32,611 bases of DNA from positions 1 through 32,611 of IMG/VR virus record IMGVR_UViG_3300016457_000335; one strand, given 5' to 3'. Shown here piece after piece: positions 16,328-32,183 of this stretch. Made by a program: the position numbers and the translations under genes. How positions within the stretch are numbered: position 1 is the stretch's first letter; each line of letters begins with the position of its first letter. This DNA is from a virus. Under the pieces are notes generated by a model that saw only the letters and a program-made list of their open reading frames with translations, was not told where the DNA came from and ran no database searches.

Positions 16328-17798
16328 CGTCATTCCTTTCATCGTCGTTGGCGCCAAGGGCGCCGGGTTCGTCGTCCTGCCGGGCACCAGAGGCGTTCGT
16401 TCGCCTCGGGTCGCTGTCGTAGCGAAGCCCGGCCGCGTCTGCGCGCTGGTTGTCCTGCGCCTGCTCGGCATCGACCTGTTCGGGATCCTCGCCGGCGCTC
16501 AGCACCACCTTGCTGCGCGACTTGAAGCCCGCCCGCACCGCCTTGAGTTCGGAGGTCACGTCCTGCACAGGGTGGCTCCAGGGCCAGCCCTCGGGCACCC
16601 ACAGGGTTTCGGTCACGTCATCGCGCAGGGCCGCATAGCGCGGCACCTTCAGCAGACCCGCCAGCACCGCCTGGTCCATGAAGGCGTCACGGACCCGCTG
16701 GCAGAACATGGGGATCATGAAGAGCCACTGGTCCTGCTCGATGACCCGGCGGAACTCGTTGAGGATCAGACGCAGCGCGCGGTCAGAGACGTTGCGCAGG
16801 TCGCCGGTCAGCACTTCATAGGGCACATCCTGGCTGGCAGAGATCGCCAGCAGATGCCCGCGCAGGAACTCGGCATAGTCAGAGCCGGCGCTGGGCGGCT
16901 CGGCGAACGTGATCTTTCGGCCGGGTGGCAGCTCCTGCATCGTGCCCGGCTCGAGCCCACCGATAGCCGTGCCGTCGGCATCCTCACCGGTGATCAGATC
17001 GCCGATGGCATCGCCTTCTTCTCCATCCGCATTGGCATCGGTGGTGATGAAGGCTGCGAACAGGTTGGCCAGGGCCTGGCGCTCCAGCACCGCATCATCC
17101 AGGCGGTCCAGGTTGAACATGCGCAGCAAGGCCGGCGCCGAGCCCGGCACGCCCCGCATCGCGCCCGCACGGTTCGGCCGGTACAGGTGCAGCACCTGCT
17201 CCGCCGGCACGCGCACCAGCTCGTTGCCGTTGACTGTCAGCTGCAGGTCGCCCGGGTGCTCCCGGTACATCCAGTAGGCCACCCGGCGGCCGATGCTATC
17301 GACCTCGATGCCCTGCCGGATCACGTTGCCGTTGCTGGCCACGCCGTTGTAGTGCTGCGGGCACTGCTCCGATTCGATCAGCTGTACCTGCAGCGGCACA
17401 GGCAAGCCGTCCTCGGGCCGCCGGTACCGGATGCGGGCGAACACCTCGCCGGCCTCTTTCCACTCGCGCCAGGCGAGCGCCTGCAGGCCTTCCCATACCA
17501 GCACGCCATCGGCGTCAGCGTACTTGCCCCAACGGGTCCACAGCATGGTGACCTTCTTCTTGTGCTCCTTCGTGCCCCAGATCGGCTTTGCCTGGATGCC
17601 GGTGGCGATGCCGTTCGACACGCTCTTGTTGAGCGCGCTGACCATCCACGGGTCATTCCGGGCCAGGTGCCGTGCCCGTGCCAGCAGCGTCGGCAGGCCC
17701 AGCAGCGATGCGTTGGGTCCGAGCGAAGTCGGGCGGAAGGTGCGAAGGCGGCGGCCGTTGCCGGCGGCGCGATAGCTGCTCTCGGCGGTATCAGACAT
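16317..17798 (-). CDS. Phage portal protein (lambda gpB family)
   Basis: The product is 493 residues from ATG 17798, which overlaps the W-like gene stop in ATGTCTGA. Lambda gpB is 533. Characteristic lambda-portal phrases are RARHLARNDPWMVSALNKSVSNGIATGIQ near the N-terminus, GEVFARIRYRRPEDGLPVPLQVQLIESEQCP, VLHLYRPNRAGAMRGVPG and QDVPYEVLTGDLRNVS...RLILNEFRR. It forms the dodecameric channel for DNA packaging and tail attachment. The C-terminus is acidic (DDERNDDDE) and its last codons carry the ribosome site of the protease gene. Confidence 0.93.
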   Translation of the reverse strand: MSDTAESSYRAAGNGRRLRTFRPTSLGPNASLLGLPTLLARARHLARNDPWMVSALNKSVSNGIATGIQAKPIWGTKEHKKKVTMLWTRWGKYADADGVLVWEGLQALAWREWKEAGEVFARIRYRRPEDGLPVPLQVQLIESEQCPQHYNGVASNGNVIRQGIEVDSIGRRVAYWMYREHPGDLQLTVNGNELVRVPAEQVLHLYRPNRAGAMRGVPGSAPALLRMFNLDRLDDAVLERQALANLFAAFITTDANADGEEGDAIGDLITGEDADGTAIGGLEPGTMQELPPGRKITFAEPPSAGSDYAEFLRGHLLAISASQDVPYEVLTGDLRNVSDRALRLILNEFRRVIEQDQWLFMIPMFCQRVRDAFMDQAVLAGLLKVPRYAALRDDVTETLWVPEGWPWSHPVQDVTSELKAVRAGFKSRSKVVLSAGEDPEQVDAEQAQDNQRADAAGLRYDSDPRRTNASGARQDDEPGALGANDDERNDDDE

Positions 17799-23789: not shown

Positions 23790-23933
23790 GTCTCAGCTGT
23801 TGCGACATACGTTAAGCAAACTGCTCGCGCTCTCCGGAGAGCGGCAGGGCTTAGGCCAATGGCACGCGGCTGAAACGCGTGTACTGCGGCGGCGCCCCGG
23901 TGCTGGCAGGCATCGGGGCGTCGCTCTGTTTGA
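23790..23933. promoter_or_regulatory. Leader region of the methyltransferase gene: palindrome, hairpin and shared 11-base word
   Basis: No gene is seen. A perfect 16-base palindrome, CGCTCTCC/GGAGAGCG, is at 23828..23843. On the minus strand the word TTGCTTAACGT (23819..23809) lies about 20 bases ahead of the start; the same word precedes the plus-strand gene at 24712. A hairpin lies at 23893..23920. Confidence 0.45.
23893..23920. other. GC-rich hairpin downstream of the tRNA gene
   Basis: An 11-bp stem (CGCCCCGGTGC against GCATCGGGGCG, one wobble pair) encloses the 6-base loop TGGCAG. It lies 14 bases beyond the 3' end of the tRNA in the direction of transcription. No T-run follows, so it may be a processing or stabilising structure, not an intrinsic terminator. 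Confidence 0.5.
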
Positions 23934-24018
23934 TGGTGGGGCGGCGTGGAGTCGAACCACGTGAGTCACAGACGCCGGATTTACAGTCCGGCCCAGCGCC
24001 CATCTGGCAACCCGCCCC
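23934..24018 (-). tRNA. tRNA-Tyr (GUA anticodon), CCA end encoded
   Basis: The minus strand folds as a class II tRNA. The acceptor stem is GGGGCGG/CCGCCCC, followed by discriminator A and an encoded CCA. The anticodon arm is CCGGA-CTGTAAA-TCCGG, giving GTA. There is a long variable arm of about 13 bases, as expected for bacterial tRNA-Tyr, and the T arm is CGTGG-TTCGACT-CCACG. It lies alone between a GIY-YIG gene and the methyltransferase, in the phage operon orientation. Confidence 0.95.
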
Positions 24019-24030
24019 AGAAACGACGAA

Positions 24031-24067
24031 CCGCAGGTCACTGGACCTCCCGAGTCCAGGCCTGCGG
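24031..24067. other. Extended hairpin upstream of the tRNA gene
   Basis: Outer stem CCGCAGG/CCTGCGG (24031..24037 with 24061..24067) encloses inner stem CTGGAC/GTCCAG (24041..24046 with 24054..24059) and a 7-base loop. It lies between the GIY-YIG gene stop at 24081 and the tRNA. It may mark RNA processing or weak termination; the minus-strand side is followed only by TTCGTCGTTTC, a poor U-tract. Confidence 0.5.
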
Positions 24068-24080
24068 CCGGCGCAAACTG

Positions 24081-24572: not shown

Positions 24573-24711
24573 GGTCCCAATTGGACAACAAGCCTGGTTC
24601 CCAATGCAACTGCGGTAAGGTTCCTTACCGCAGTCGGTCGAATGCGGTAAGGTTCGGCGCGACTGCGGTAATGTTGCTTAACGTTCAGGGCTTCTATCAA
24701 AAGGATTGGAC
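24573..24711. promoter_or_regulatory. Divergent control region with operator-like array
   Basis: This non-coding region separates the minus-strand GIY-YIG gene from the plus-strand gene at 24712, so it should hold promoters in both directions. It contains the repeat array at 24609..24675 and, on the plus strand, TTGCTTAACGT at 24674..24684. No strong -35/-10 pair can be assigned by eye. Confidence 0.6.
24609..24675. repeat. TGCGGTAA operator-like repeats with a 26-base palindrome
   Basis: The word TGCGGTAAGGTT occurs at 24611 and 24643, and TGCGGTAATGTT at 24664, all in plus orientation. The first copy is half of a palindrome at 24609..24634: 12-base arm ACTGCGGTAAGG, spacer TT, then the exact reverse complement. 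The direct copies are spaced 32 and 21 bases apart, close to three and two helical turns. This is what a multi-site operator for a dimeric repressor or activator looks like. Confidence 0.8.
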
Positions 24712-24981
24712 ATGGCTCAGCTGCTTCAAATCACTCGTACCCACAAGAACGATGCTGGAAAAGTATCAAGCTATACAACAGTAATCTTGGCGGATCAGAT
24801 TTCATCGTTTGAGTACCGCCCAGACGTCATTTCCCTATCTGTCTATATGAAATCGGGGCAATCCCACGATTTCGTTCGTCTCACGAAGGAACAGGGTGAC
24901 GAGTTGTATGAGCTGCTGATGGGCTCTCAGCATGATCTTGAACATAAAACCGTCGACTTTGACATCAGGTCCGGAGCCTGA
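24712..24981 (+). CDS. Small plus-strand protein of unknown function (89 aa)
   Basis: This is the only supported plus-strand gene. ATG 24712 is chosen because AAAAGGAT lies just upstream; a TTG six bases earlier is in frame but less likely. The product (MAQLLQITRTHKNDAGK ... SSFEYRPDVISLSVYMKSGQ ... FVRLTKEQGDELYELLMG) looks like a compact alpha/beta domain with a charged tail. It has no signal peptide or membrane helix. I do not recognise a family. Base composition is clearly more AT-rich than its neighbours. Orientation, its own operator-like array and composition point to an independently controlled moron or regulator gene (inference). Confidence 0.75.
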   Translation: MAQLLQITRTHKNDAGKVSSYTTVILADQISSFEYRPDVISLSVYMKSGQSHDFVRLTKEQGDELYELLMGSQHDLEHKTVDFDIRSGA

Positions 24982-24992
24982 TCTCCGTGGGG

Positions 24993-25015
24993 CGGGACGG
25001 CGCCATGCTGTCCCG
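24993..25015. other. Hairpin between convergent genes
   Basis: CGGGAC (24993..24998) pairs with GTCCCG (25010..25015) around an 11-base loop between the plus-strand gene stop and the minus-strand gene stop. It could serve both directions as a pause or end signal, but no T-run follows on either strand. Confidence 0.4.
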
Positions 25016-25028
25016 TCACATAGGTAGG

Positions 25029-25793
25029 TTACCGATTGAATACCCTGCCACTGAACTCTTTGCGCCCATCCTCCAGCGCCTGTCGCAGCGTCGCGGTAGC
25101 AATCCCGTACACGCGTAGATAGTCCCCCTTCCGCATCTTGGCCGCCTTTGCCGCATCCTGTGCGGCGATCTTCCCTTCGGGCCACACCAGGTCGTTCACC
25201 GCATCCTGCAGCACCAGCCTCATGCGCCAGCGGTCGGCTGGGTCATCCATTCGCAGCGCAGGCTTTGCGCCGAAGCGTCGCTGCCACTGAATCTGCCGCA
25301 TCACACGCCTGGCCAGGGAGCGCCCCAGCGATGACAGGGACACTCCCTGCCCGCGCAGCGCCACCGCCAGCACGGCCTGCTTGGCCACCGAATCGCGCAT
25401 CATGCCGACGGCACCGGCGATGTCGGCAGACGTCAACGGCGGCATGGTTGACCGGCCATCCGATGGCTCGCGGAAGCTCCCGCCTACCAGCATGCGGGCG
25501 ATCAGCTCGAGCGGATCTCGTTCCAAGGTCGGCTCTGGCACCGGCACTCGGCCATGCACCACCCTGACCGGCGTCGGCGCCGGCATGTAGATCGGCCGGT
25601 GTGTCCATGCCCTGCGGGCGCCCTCTTCCGCATCTGCGCCAACATGCAGTTCTCCACGCGCGCTGCAGCGCGCGCAGACCACCTGCGCGGTGCGGCGGCT
25701 GCCGGCGCTGCCCCGCGCGCGCATGCGCACGTCGTCGCTGCCGCAGTTGCCGCACGGCGTCAGGTCCACTGCGGGCGCGGCCACTGCTGACAT
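25029..25793 (-). CDS. Zinc-ribbon protein at the late-regulator (Q) position
   Basis: The protein has 254 residues. Residues ~13 to 70 have a four-Cys ribbon: CGNCGSDDVRMR then VVCARCSARGE, ending in ARRAWTHRP. This is the pattern of Lar-type restriction-alleviation ribbons. The C-terminal ~130 residues are basic and helical (LGRSLARRVMRQIQWQRRFG; MRKGDYLRVYGIATATLRQALEDGRKEF), the latter looking like an HTH with a recognition helix. It is the last gene of the early/replication block, ahead of the late operon, as lambda Q is. A late antiterminator or activator role is inference from place and the HTH-like end. Start overlaps the preceding stop by one base. Confidence 0.65.
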   Translation of the reverse strand: MSAVAAPAVDLTPCGNCGSDDVRMRARGSAGSRRTAQVVCARCSARGELHVGADAEEGARRAWTHRPIYMPAPTPVRVVHGRVPVPEPTLERDPLELIARMLVGGSFREPSDGRSTMPPLTSADIAGAVGMMRDSVAKQAVLAVALRGQGVSLSSLGRSLARRVMRQIQWQRRFGAKPALRMDDPADRWRMRLVLQDAVNDLVWPEGKIAAQDAAKAAKMRKGDYLRVYGIATATLRQALEDGRKEFSGRVFNR

Positions 25794-30259: not shown

Positions 30260-30959
30260 GTGCGCCTCCGAAACCCAACTCGGCAGCAGCGAGCGCCATG
30301 GCGCTGCGCGCGGAATCGCGATCGCGCACCTCCAGTGGCTCGTGCTTGGGCGCGGGCAGCGCTTCTGCCGGTGCCGGCACGGCGCCCCCATCCATGACGT
30401 GCTTCACCGCCCGCTCGTAGGCGTTGGCCAGCATGCGCTGCTGCAGCGCGCCGCTCTCTGCAGTGCGGTAAGCGTGCAGGTCCAGCTTCGACCGCACCAG
30501 CACCGTGAACCCGCTGTGGGCCTGACCCGGTTGCATCTGGCCGTCGACTTCGGCCAGCGCCGGCACGCCCAGGCACATGGCGCGGAACTGGCCGGGGTTC
30601 GGTGGCCACTGCAGCGCGCTGCGCAGGCAGTTGCCCAGCCCTTCCGCCACCTGCCGGGGGGTGATGCCAGACATCACCTGGAACCACAGCTCACCGGCGG
30701 TAGTCAGGCTGCCCGCGTTGTTCACCGGGGCTGTGCCGTTCTCGCGCACCCACTTCCCGGGGAACATGCCGGCCATGCGCTCCCACACTGTCCACAGGGC
30801 GCTCACTGCGCGCTGGTCCGGATCAGTGCTGGACGCACTGGAATTCGCCTTCGATGACGTCGCCGCCTGCTCCGCCAAAGCCGCCAGCTGCCGCGCGCTG
30901 TTCGTGGCGTCGTCGCTCCTCTGCGACGTGTTCGGCAGAACCGAGTTGAGGGTTTGCAT
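30246..30959 (-). CDS. Replication protein P-like helicase loader
   Basis: The protein has 237 residues (lambda P 233). The start ATG 30959 has a strong GGAGG site five bases upstream, so the long 137-base overlap with the preceding gene is real. The core ALWTVWERMAGMFPGKWVREN, then TAGELWFQVMSGITPRQVAEGL, and LQWPPNPGQFRAMC are typical of the lambda P family. The C-terminus is charged and helical. It recruits host DnaB helicase to the phage origin via the O-type initiator encoded just upstream. Confidence 0.88.
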   Translation of the reverse strand: MQTLNSVLPNTSQRSDDATNSARQLAALAEQAATSSKANSSASSTDPDQRAVSALWTVWERMAGMFPGKWVRENGTAPVNNAGSLTTAGELWFQVMSGITPRQVAEGLGNCLRSALQWPPNPGQFRAMCLGVPALAEVDGQMQPGQAHSGFTVLVRSKLDLHAYRTAESGALQQRMLANAYERAVKHVMDGGAVPAPAEALPAPKHEPLEVRDRDSARSAMALAAAELGFGGAHGAG

Positions 30960-31827
30960 TGGGGCCTCCGGGATTGGTGGTGTTCGTCGGCGTTGCGCCG
31001 GCGGCTTTTCGGCTTCGAGCGGCCTGGATTGCCCAGGGGAAGGGCTTGGCCACAGGTGGGGATCGGGACAGCGCCTCGGTGACGGTGTCGGCCAGCTCCT
31101 GCGGCGTCACGCCTTCGGCCAGCGCGGCGATCAGGTCGGGATGGCTCGGGTTGGTCGAGTGGCAACCGGCCTGGCGCATCAGCACGCACGCACGCCCCGC
31201 ATCGGACGCACCGCTCAGAGATCCTTGAGCGTGCAGTGATGTATCTGGAGTAATAGATATGGGGTCTGGGGTCTGGTTACCCGTGTTCACGCCTGTGTTC
31301 ACGCCCCCTGTCACGCGTGACTCTCCGTGACTTGTCACGCGTGACAGGTGGGCCGAAGTCACGCGTTCATCGCCAGTCACATGCGTGACGTGCAGCGCCT
31401 TCAACTCCGCCATGGTGGCCATGCCGCTTGGCACGACACCCACGTTGCGTAGGTCTTCGAACAGCATCGTGCGCCGCGCGCGGGTGCGCGCCTGCCGCTC
31501 TGCCTCGGCCTGCTTCCTGTCTTCCCGGCGCCCCTGCCCGTCAGCAATTCGGACCTGAGCGGTGGCGATCTGCTCGTCGCAGCGCTTGCTGTGGCGCAGC
31601 CCATCTTCGGCCACAGGGAAGTAGCGCTCGGCGACCTTCTTGACCGCTACCTTGTCGGCCGTGCTGATGGCACCGGCGATGACATACAGCTCCCCCAGGC
31701 TCTCGGGCAGCGCCTCCTCTTCCGAGTAGTAAGCCAGCATCAGCTTGAAGTAGACGCCGTGGTCCGTCAGGGACAGCCGTGTGGTGTCCTTGAGGTAGTC
31801 GCCGGGGTACATCTCGAAGTAGATCAC
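30823..31827 (-). CDS. DUF1376 (YdaU-type) replication protein, O-like position
   Basis: The product is 334 residues from GTG 31827, which overlaps the preceding stop as GTGA. ATG 31812 is the alternative. Residues 1 to ~95 (IYFEMYPGDYLKDTTRLSLTDHGVYFKLMLAYY ... AVKKVAERYFPVAEDGLRHSKRCDEQI) are the DUF1376 domain, a winged-helix-like fold common before P-type loaders. A basic helix (QAEAERQARTRARR) follows. The middle contains protein repeats RVTSAHLS/RVTSHGES/RVTGGVNT, encoded by 24-base DNA repeats, and the C-terminus is Ala/Gly-rich. As with lambda O, the gene appears to carry its own origin. Confidence 0.85.
   Translation of the reverse strand: MIYFEMYPGDYLKDTTRLSLTDHGVYFKLMLAYYSEEEALPESLGELYVIAGAISTADKVAVKKVAERYFPVAEDGLRHSKRCDEQIATAQVRIADGQGRREDRKQAEAERQARTRARRTMLFEDLRNVGVVPSGMATMAELKALHVTHVTGDERVTSAHLSRVTSHGESRVTGGVNTGVNTGNQTPDPISITPDTSLHAQGSLSGASDAGRACVLMRQAGCHSTNPSHPDLIAALAEGVTPQELADTVTEALSRSPPVAKPFPWAIQAARSRKAAGATPTNTTNPGGPNANPQLGSAEHVAEERRRHEQRAAAGGFGGAGGDVIEGEFQCVQH
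31283..31388. repeat. Iteron-like repeats inside the DUF1376 gene; candidate replication origin
   Basis: The palindrome GTCACGCGTGAC occurs at 31310 and 31334, with GTCACGCGTTC at 31358 and GTCAC-AT-GCGTGAC at 31376. The first three lie exactly 24 bases apart. Two further GTGTTCACGCC copies stand at 31283 and 31295, 12 bases apart. An AT-richer stretch containing TAATAGATAT follows at about 31230..31260. Lambda has the same layout: iterons inside O, then an AT-rich unwinding region. Confidence 0.7.
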
Positions 31828-32183
31828 GCTCGATTCCCCATGCCACGCAGCAGCGGCGCCATCGCCACCGGCTCCGGCGTGTGCGAAGGGCACGGGTTCC
31901 TCGGCACTTCGGCCAGGCACAAGGCGTCGGCCAGGCTGCTCCGCCAGCGGAACGCCGTAGAGCGGCTGACGTTGAACCGGTCCTGCACCTGCTGGACCGT
32001 GGGGAAGTTGGTGCAGCACGCGCTCACCCACAGCGCGAAGTCGATGACGATCCTGGTCTGGCACTGACCACTGAGCGCCGCCTTGCGGCGGTGGTCGGGC
32101 GCGCGCGCCGAATCAGGCACGTCGCAAAGGCTGCTGGTGCGCTGCGGGCCGCAAACAGTGCCCAGGCTGGCGAGCGGGCTCAT
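31824..32183 (-). CDS. HTH-domain protein, second of a tandem pair (119 aa)
   Basis: The protein has 119 residues. The HTH is FPTVQQVQDRFNVSRSTAFRWRSSLADAL (about 60 to 88), with VSRSTAFRW as recognition helix. The N-terminal ~45 residues are basic and less ordered, so a later start is possible; the ATG 32183 used here overlaps the preceding stop as ATGA. It resembles the neighbouring protein (SRSTAFRW against SRATAYRW), so the two look like a duplication. A DNA-binding regulator or replication accessory is likely; the target is unknown. Confidence 0.65.
   Translation of the reverse strand: MSPLASLGTVCGPQRTSSLCDVPDSARAPDHRRKAALSGQCQTRIVIDFALWVSACCTNFPTVQQVQDRFNVSRSTAFRWRSSLADALCLAEVPRNPCPSHTPEPVAMAPLLRGMGNRA

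Follow-up and report, generated by a model that had tools for sequence, protein, structure and literature searches.

Organization of the array and its surroundings

The window, a 32,611-nt stretch of viral DNA (IMG/VR record IMGVR_UViG_3300016457_000335), contains a compact cluster of repeats that lies between a leftward late region and a small plus-strand gene, beyond which a minus-strand gene encodes a protein with an N-terminal zinc ribbon, hereafter ZR (Table 1). Four TGCGGTAA half-sites occur within 61 nt, at 24611-24618 (+), 24625-24632 (-), 24643-24650 (+), and 24664-24671 (+), with half-site starts spaced by 14, 18, and 21 nt and direct copies spaced by 32 and 21 nt. The proximal pair lies in a 26-nt inverted repeat of the form ACTGCGGTAAGG-TT-CCTTACCGCAGT. 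An earlier, sequence-only reading of this DNA had described a phased array consisting of a 26-nt palindrome and two direct copies with spacings of 32 and 21 nt, and this was borne out position by position. The window as a whole holds six copies of TGCGGTAA, four of them in the array, compared with a mean of 0.36 and a maximum of two in dinucleotide shuffles.

Table 1. Features at and around the repeat array, with positions in the window.
Feature	Position	Strand	Basis or remark
tRNA-Tyr (GTA) in the late leader	23934..24018	-	Downstream of the hairpin
Leader hairpin, putative terminator or other structured leader element	24027..24071	-	UCGGGA loop and compensatory changes
GIY-YIG (T5orf172/MUG113) protein, 163 aa	24081..24572	-	Pfam; between late promoter and leader hairpin
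TCCAAT, putative weak -10-like hexamer, 18-nt spacer	24580..24585	-	Reading of the sequence
GGGAACC in the -35/-10 spacer, like the AlpA element GGGACG	24596..24602	-	Conserved with the core
TTGCAT, putative -35-like hexamer of the leftward core	24604..24609	-	TTGC(A/C) or TTGA in all collected core-bearing phages
26-nt inverted repeat, ACTGCGGTAAGG-TT-CCTTACCGCAGT	24609..24634	.	Proximal half-site pair, adjoining the leftward promoter core; 22-nt core exact in 44 viral contigs
Four-half-site TGCGGTAA array	24611..24671	.	Counts versus shuffles; conservation stops sharply at ~24682
Variable accessory slot, array to ZR gene	24683..25028	.	~345 nt in the window
P0002, accessory protein of 89 aa; small and beta-structured, with a suggested PH-like fold	24712..24981	+	ORF (from ATG), homologs, dN/dS, model
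ZR, N-terminal zinc ribbon and C-terminal helical domain, proposed late-gene regulator	25029..25793	-	Conservation, model, co-occurrence with array
DUF1376 replication protein	30823-32064	-	

The 89-aa plus-strand gene

The plus-strand ORF begins 30 nt beyond the array and is considered a real gene because it has a good ribosome binding site (AAAGGA at 24700-24705), a lower G+C content (47%, as against 66% in the window), homologs with an intact frame, and dN/dS values of 0.12-0.44, indicating purifying selection. The sequence-only reading, which had called the gene AT-richer than its surroundings and had made its case depend on homologs with a conserved frame, was thus upheld on both counts, as it was in placing the protein outside any recognized family: searches of Pfam, NCBIfam, and PADLOC gave no match, and a weak PHROG match was to a group of unknown function. 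Its description there as the sole plus-strand gene agrees with the layout of ORFs.

There are four close versions of the protein, the other three being 76-82% identical to that of the window, and two remote relatives of 74-78 aa are well linked to the family (hhalign 94.5%). Close and remote relatives alike occupy the same place in the same orientation. The link to a set of 114-119-aa proteins found at the corresponding position in other phages is weak and remote (hhalign 19%). An apparent relative from Planctomycetota (L009) fell apart on reading and was discarded. Structure prediction, one of the checks that had been proposed, gave a small beta sheet with a helix and PH-like Foldseek matches, none of them significant; the best match of the model in the PDB had an E-value of 0.04 and the best viral match, to an uncharacterized protein, 0.0014. 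The likeliest role is that of a small accessory protein (moron) acting in defense, exclusion, or modification of the host, and the proposal of a moron-like accessory gene at a late/early junction is supported.

Conservation of the array in related phages

When viral contigs were scanned for the same repeat array, the exact 22-nt core repeat was recovered from 44 of them, nearly all with the same four sites and the same 32- and 21-nt spacings; the array was not found in the known phages or plasmids searched. Alignment of ~38 distinct contexts showed near-invariance up to the right end of the array, after which similarity was lost within a few bases. The flanks are fixed in kind: to the left lies the start of a leftward transcription unit, and to the right, past a variable stretch, lies the minus-strand ZR gene (43 contigs). 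In dozens of related phages the array holds a constant position upstream of a conserved leftward core resembling a late promoter.

Variation within this plan was limited. Additional half-site copies were present in L048 and L050; in L048 a 32-nt array unit is duplicated in tandem (217-270), and five half-sites occur in L114, so the number of half-sites can change. The center is reversed in L054, and the array there appears in the opposite orientation. Two palindromes occur in a second group (L220-L225), one of them at the core and the other, matching or slightly decayed, ~165 nt upstream. The two TGCGGTAA palindromes of L220 lie at 16350-16372 and 16514-16536, and the variable stretch of this phage carries a SulP-like permease; a possible second promoter, in the form of a GTTGCCGCAGTC..TTTGGTAGC stretch, comes after its upstream palindrome.

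In more distant ZR phages, drawn from viral contigs and Stenotrophomonas chromosomes, the core is kept and the arrays consist of TTCC[GT]CATG[CA]GGAA palindromes, specifically TTCCGCATGCGGAA or TTCCTCATGAGGAA, together with ..AACCGCAG, the proximal AACCGCAG again standing beside TTGC. The half-site in these phages is TGCGGAA or TGAGGAA, as opposed to TGCGGTAA in the main lineage, with position and phasing unchanged, and the half-site type tracks the ZR lineage. A different repeat cluster, CTGGGG, takes the place of the array in L116.

Late-promoter-like core and leader

Read along the minus strand, the proximal half-site passes directly into CAGTTGCA-n-GGGAACC or a close variant. The general form of this core, TTGCA-n-GGGA(A)CC, abuts the proximal half-site in 33 distinct TGCGGTAA-type arrays, which are all the variants of that type collected by the core, and in eight other arrays. 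A generic sigma-70 scan found no promoter or terminator at the locus, and the leftward promoter is for this reason an inferred one.

Between the putative promoter and the leader hairpin lies the GIY-YIG ORF, which occupies the same place in 10 related contigs, and is missing from others, a pattern suggestive of homing-type insertion into a fixed site. The UCGGGA loop of the hairpin is invariant, and its stem differs between two phage groups by compensatory changes, with four pairs altered on both sides and a covariation score that was reached by none of 500 shuffles. In the main group it is without a clean U-tract; because its loop is conserved, the sequence suggests that it is more than a plain terminator. 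In L118, the core is followed by a hairpin and, ~20 nt further, by TTTCTTTT, with a clear terminator; in L116, the core leads to a tRNA and a textbook terminator. A tRNA is usual in the leader of related phages, of Tyr type in the window and of Gly or Met type elsewhere. An 82-aa ORF (23793-24041) overlaps the tRNA-Tyr (GTA) and is probably no gene. Past the tRNA, the window continues with a methyltransferase, an endolysin, and more late genes, giving the order of late regulator (as proposed for ZR), variable stretch, promoter, tRNA, and lysis.

A variable slot with defense-type cargo

The stretch from the array to the ZR gene varies from 26 to 2,548 nt (median 992; 48 contigs). This slot opens with a plus-strand ORF in 24 contigs and with a minus-strand ORF in 21; it is empty in two (L085, 26 nt; L114, 54 nt), with a near-identical array still in place, and in one it lacks any ORF of 70 aa. 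Some 20 unrelated types of cargo, on both strands, stand beside near-identical arrays. Recognized among them were Septu PtuA/PtuB, a PtuA-like ATPase, an RT-Protease class XI system (RT-Protease_XI), a PDC-S35/CAP12-type TIR protein, GmrSD_N with HEPN, and Mrr with a histidine kinase and response regulator, along with a KAP NTPase in one distant relative. Genes of defense type were located at L102:5020-6669, L098:2327-4239, L088:4759-5574, L080:4993-6686, and L099:2837-4530. The cargo of six further contigs (L067, L106, L115, L083, L076, and L090) matched no Pfam or PADLOC family, and these genes are candidates for new defense genes.

Hotspots of antiviral genes in P2- and P4-like prophages are small loci between two conserved anchors, with high turnover and many defense genes (PMC9122126). 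The slot described here shares this layout, with high turnover between two conserved anchors and recognized defense systems among its cargo, in another phage family and host genus; it differs in its anchors, which are a regulatory array with a late promoter on one side and a proposed late-regulator gene on the other. Like the P2 and P4 loci, the slot is a prophage defense hotspot, often filled with anti-phage genes in related Stenotrophomonas prophages, and the array is its left border.

The 89-aa family is the commonest cargo, present in 13 contigs when the 114-119-aa forms are counted, and is still found in a minority of array contigs. Its members always start right at the array, in some phages with the start codon only 2-28 nt from the array edge, which leaves no room for a separate promoter; in these phages rightward transcription must start inside the array or ahead of it. 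Coupling of the 89-aa gene to the array is therefore likely.

ZR and its association with the array

In all 48 tabulated contigs (ZR identity of 58% or more, with sufficient flanking DNA), the array, with its core, was found 50-2,620 nt beyond the ZR gene. The suspicion in the sequence-only reading that this zinc-ribbon protein (25.0-25.8 kb) is of importance is supported. Most distant ZR phages likewise have array and core; the exceptions are L242 (63% identity) and L248, in which neither was found within ~4.3 kb.

At its N-terminus ZR has a CxxC..CxxC ribbon with sub-threshold similarity to Lar-type ribbons (20.8 bits versus 28.6 in Pfam; 21.9 versus 39.6 in NCBIfam). The zinc ribbon alone aligns, and with scores below both curated cut-offs the identification of ZR as a Lar restriction-alleviation protein was not supported. 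The C-terminal part is conserved in all lineages, and the ribbon is missing or undetected in the distant relatives L116 and L118. No known family was matched, no relative was found among 50,697 GenBank phages, a Pfam scan of 29 ZR members to an E-value of 1 gave no Q family, and a PDB profile search gave neither AlpA nor Q. The AlphaFold model, of moderate quality (pLDDT 70), had no significant Foldseek match; among the matches listed, AlpA (7xyb_G) had the highest probability (0.41; TMt 0.45; E-value 2.0, not significant).

Candidate binders of the array

ZR is probably the protein that binds the array: judged from the comparison of genomes, it fits best because it is the protein common to both array types. 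A simpler notion, in which the zinc ribbon sets the array type, was rejected on account of L120, which has the ribbon and not TGCGGTAA.

Because the general phylogeny divides along the same line as the array types, the binder could be some other conserved protein. A different phage or host regulator, repressor or co-activator of the late promoter, might occupy the array, ZR then being confined to the GGGA(A)CC spacer element. Across ZR lineages, conservation is stronger in the core than in the array, which is what recognition of the AlpA type within the spacer would predict. We regard this as rather unlikely, given that the array type goes with the ZR lineage and that, replication-type proteins aside, no other regulator was seen to be confined to the TGCGGTAA phages. 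An immunity repressor was rejected as binder since repressors vary among the array phages and the array is constant, and membership in a host regulon was rejected because pattern counts in the S. bentonitica chromosome equaled those of a reversed control, with no enrichment of the motif.

Instead, the array could serve as a replication origin of the iteron type, recognized by the DUF1376 protein and placed beside the late promoter by chance. All eight TGCGGTAA phages tested, and none of four other ZR phages, encode DUF1376, its next relatives (72%) also have TGCGGTAA palindromes, and the direct repeats are helically phased. Against this, the array keeps a fixed position with respect to the promoter core; neither flank has a conserved AT-rich stretch, G+C on the left staying at or above 42% in every 40-nt window and on the right varying with the cargo; and in empty-slot phages the array adjoins coding DNA. 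The initially good correlation was weakened by L246, where the other array type accompanies a relative of DUF1376, and a homologous array is kept in phages with no DUF1376 match, so that an origin of this kind appears improbable and DUF1376 was rejected as binder.

Least tenable is the proposal, taken from the sequence-only reading, of an operator private to the 89-aa gene, on which a phage repressor or activator would act: the closeness of the array to the ATG and the frequency and uniform orientation of the family at the array edge speak for it, but slot genes lie on either strand, pointing toward the array in 21 of 45 cases, or are absent, unrelated cargo adjoins the same array, and the leftward core abuts every distinct TGCGGTAA-type array collected, so an exclusive operator role is largely refuted and the proposal is very doubtful.

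A model for late-gene control and its relation to known systems

On balance we favor, with some confidence, the reading in which the array is an upstream binding element of the leftward late promoter, serving a Q- or AlpA-like regulator that is most likely ZR, and the 89-aa gene is an accessory gene. ZR would bind the phased GCGG(T)AA half-sites directly upstream of -35 and, at the core (TTGCA-n-GGGA(A)CC), act on RNA polymerase; like phage Q proteins or AlpA, it would then allow the polymerase to read across the leader, with its hairpin and tRNA, as far as the lysis and structural genes. Insertions would be tolerated in the slot that separates the ZR stop codon from the array, where accessory genes, many of them defense-like, are swapped. 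The 89-aa gene, divergent from the late operon, would probably have its transcription start inside the array or beside it, and hence be coupled to the same regulator; we take its expression to be tied to the state of the late promoter. The array would accordingly be shared, while belonging mainly to the late operon.

Several features recall the regulators lambda Q (at pR'), 21Q, and AlpA of Pseudomonas aeruginosa (at PalpB), in which the regulator gene also lies just before the late region. The binding element of AlpA, GGGACG, sits between -35 and -10, and lambda Q likewise has a zinc finger (PMC9371919, PMC7969949). Also alike are the element in the -35/-10 spacer, the leader hairpin, and the accessory genes and tRNAs between regulator and lysis, and the ZR loci carry a conserved element in or next to the late promoter, where binding is presumed. 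Late regions of the Q type have the same order of late regulator, slot, promoter, tRNA, and lysis. ZR differs in that no sequence homology to the Q/AlpA systems and no match to Q or an antiterminator family was found, in its additional upstream array of phased half-sites, and in the N-terminal position of its ribbon.

P2 Ogr and P4 delta are zinc-binding late activators that act at dyad sites upstream of -35. They resemble ZR, as proposed here, in being zinc-binding late regulators with dyad sites in that position; in contrast, ZR has no match to their family, its sites have another architecture, and the ribbon is missing or undetected in some distant relatives (L116 and L118).

A bolder version, in which ZR and its phased GCGG(T)AA array form a new class of late switch that combines a zinc-ribbon/HTH regulator lacking known relatives with an upstream multi-site array and an AlpA-like spacer element, the array serving as divergent promoter and boundary of the defense slot and the 89-aa family as default partner, is offered tentatively, as a possibility we consider less likely than its opposite.

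A ZR relative was present in 11 of 61 sampled Stenotrophomonas genomes and in none of the GenBank phage records, so a common prophage lineage, together with its regulator, appears to be undescribed. If the favored reading is right, the natural pairs of protein and site (TGCGGTAA, TGCGGAA, and TGAGGAA) would allow the joint change of regulator and site to be studied, and new defense genes could be mined with the array and the ZR gene as exact anchors, there being several slot genes for which no family was matched.
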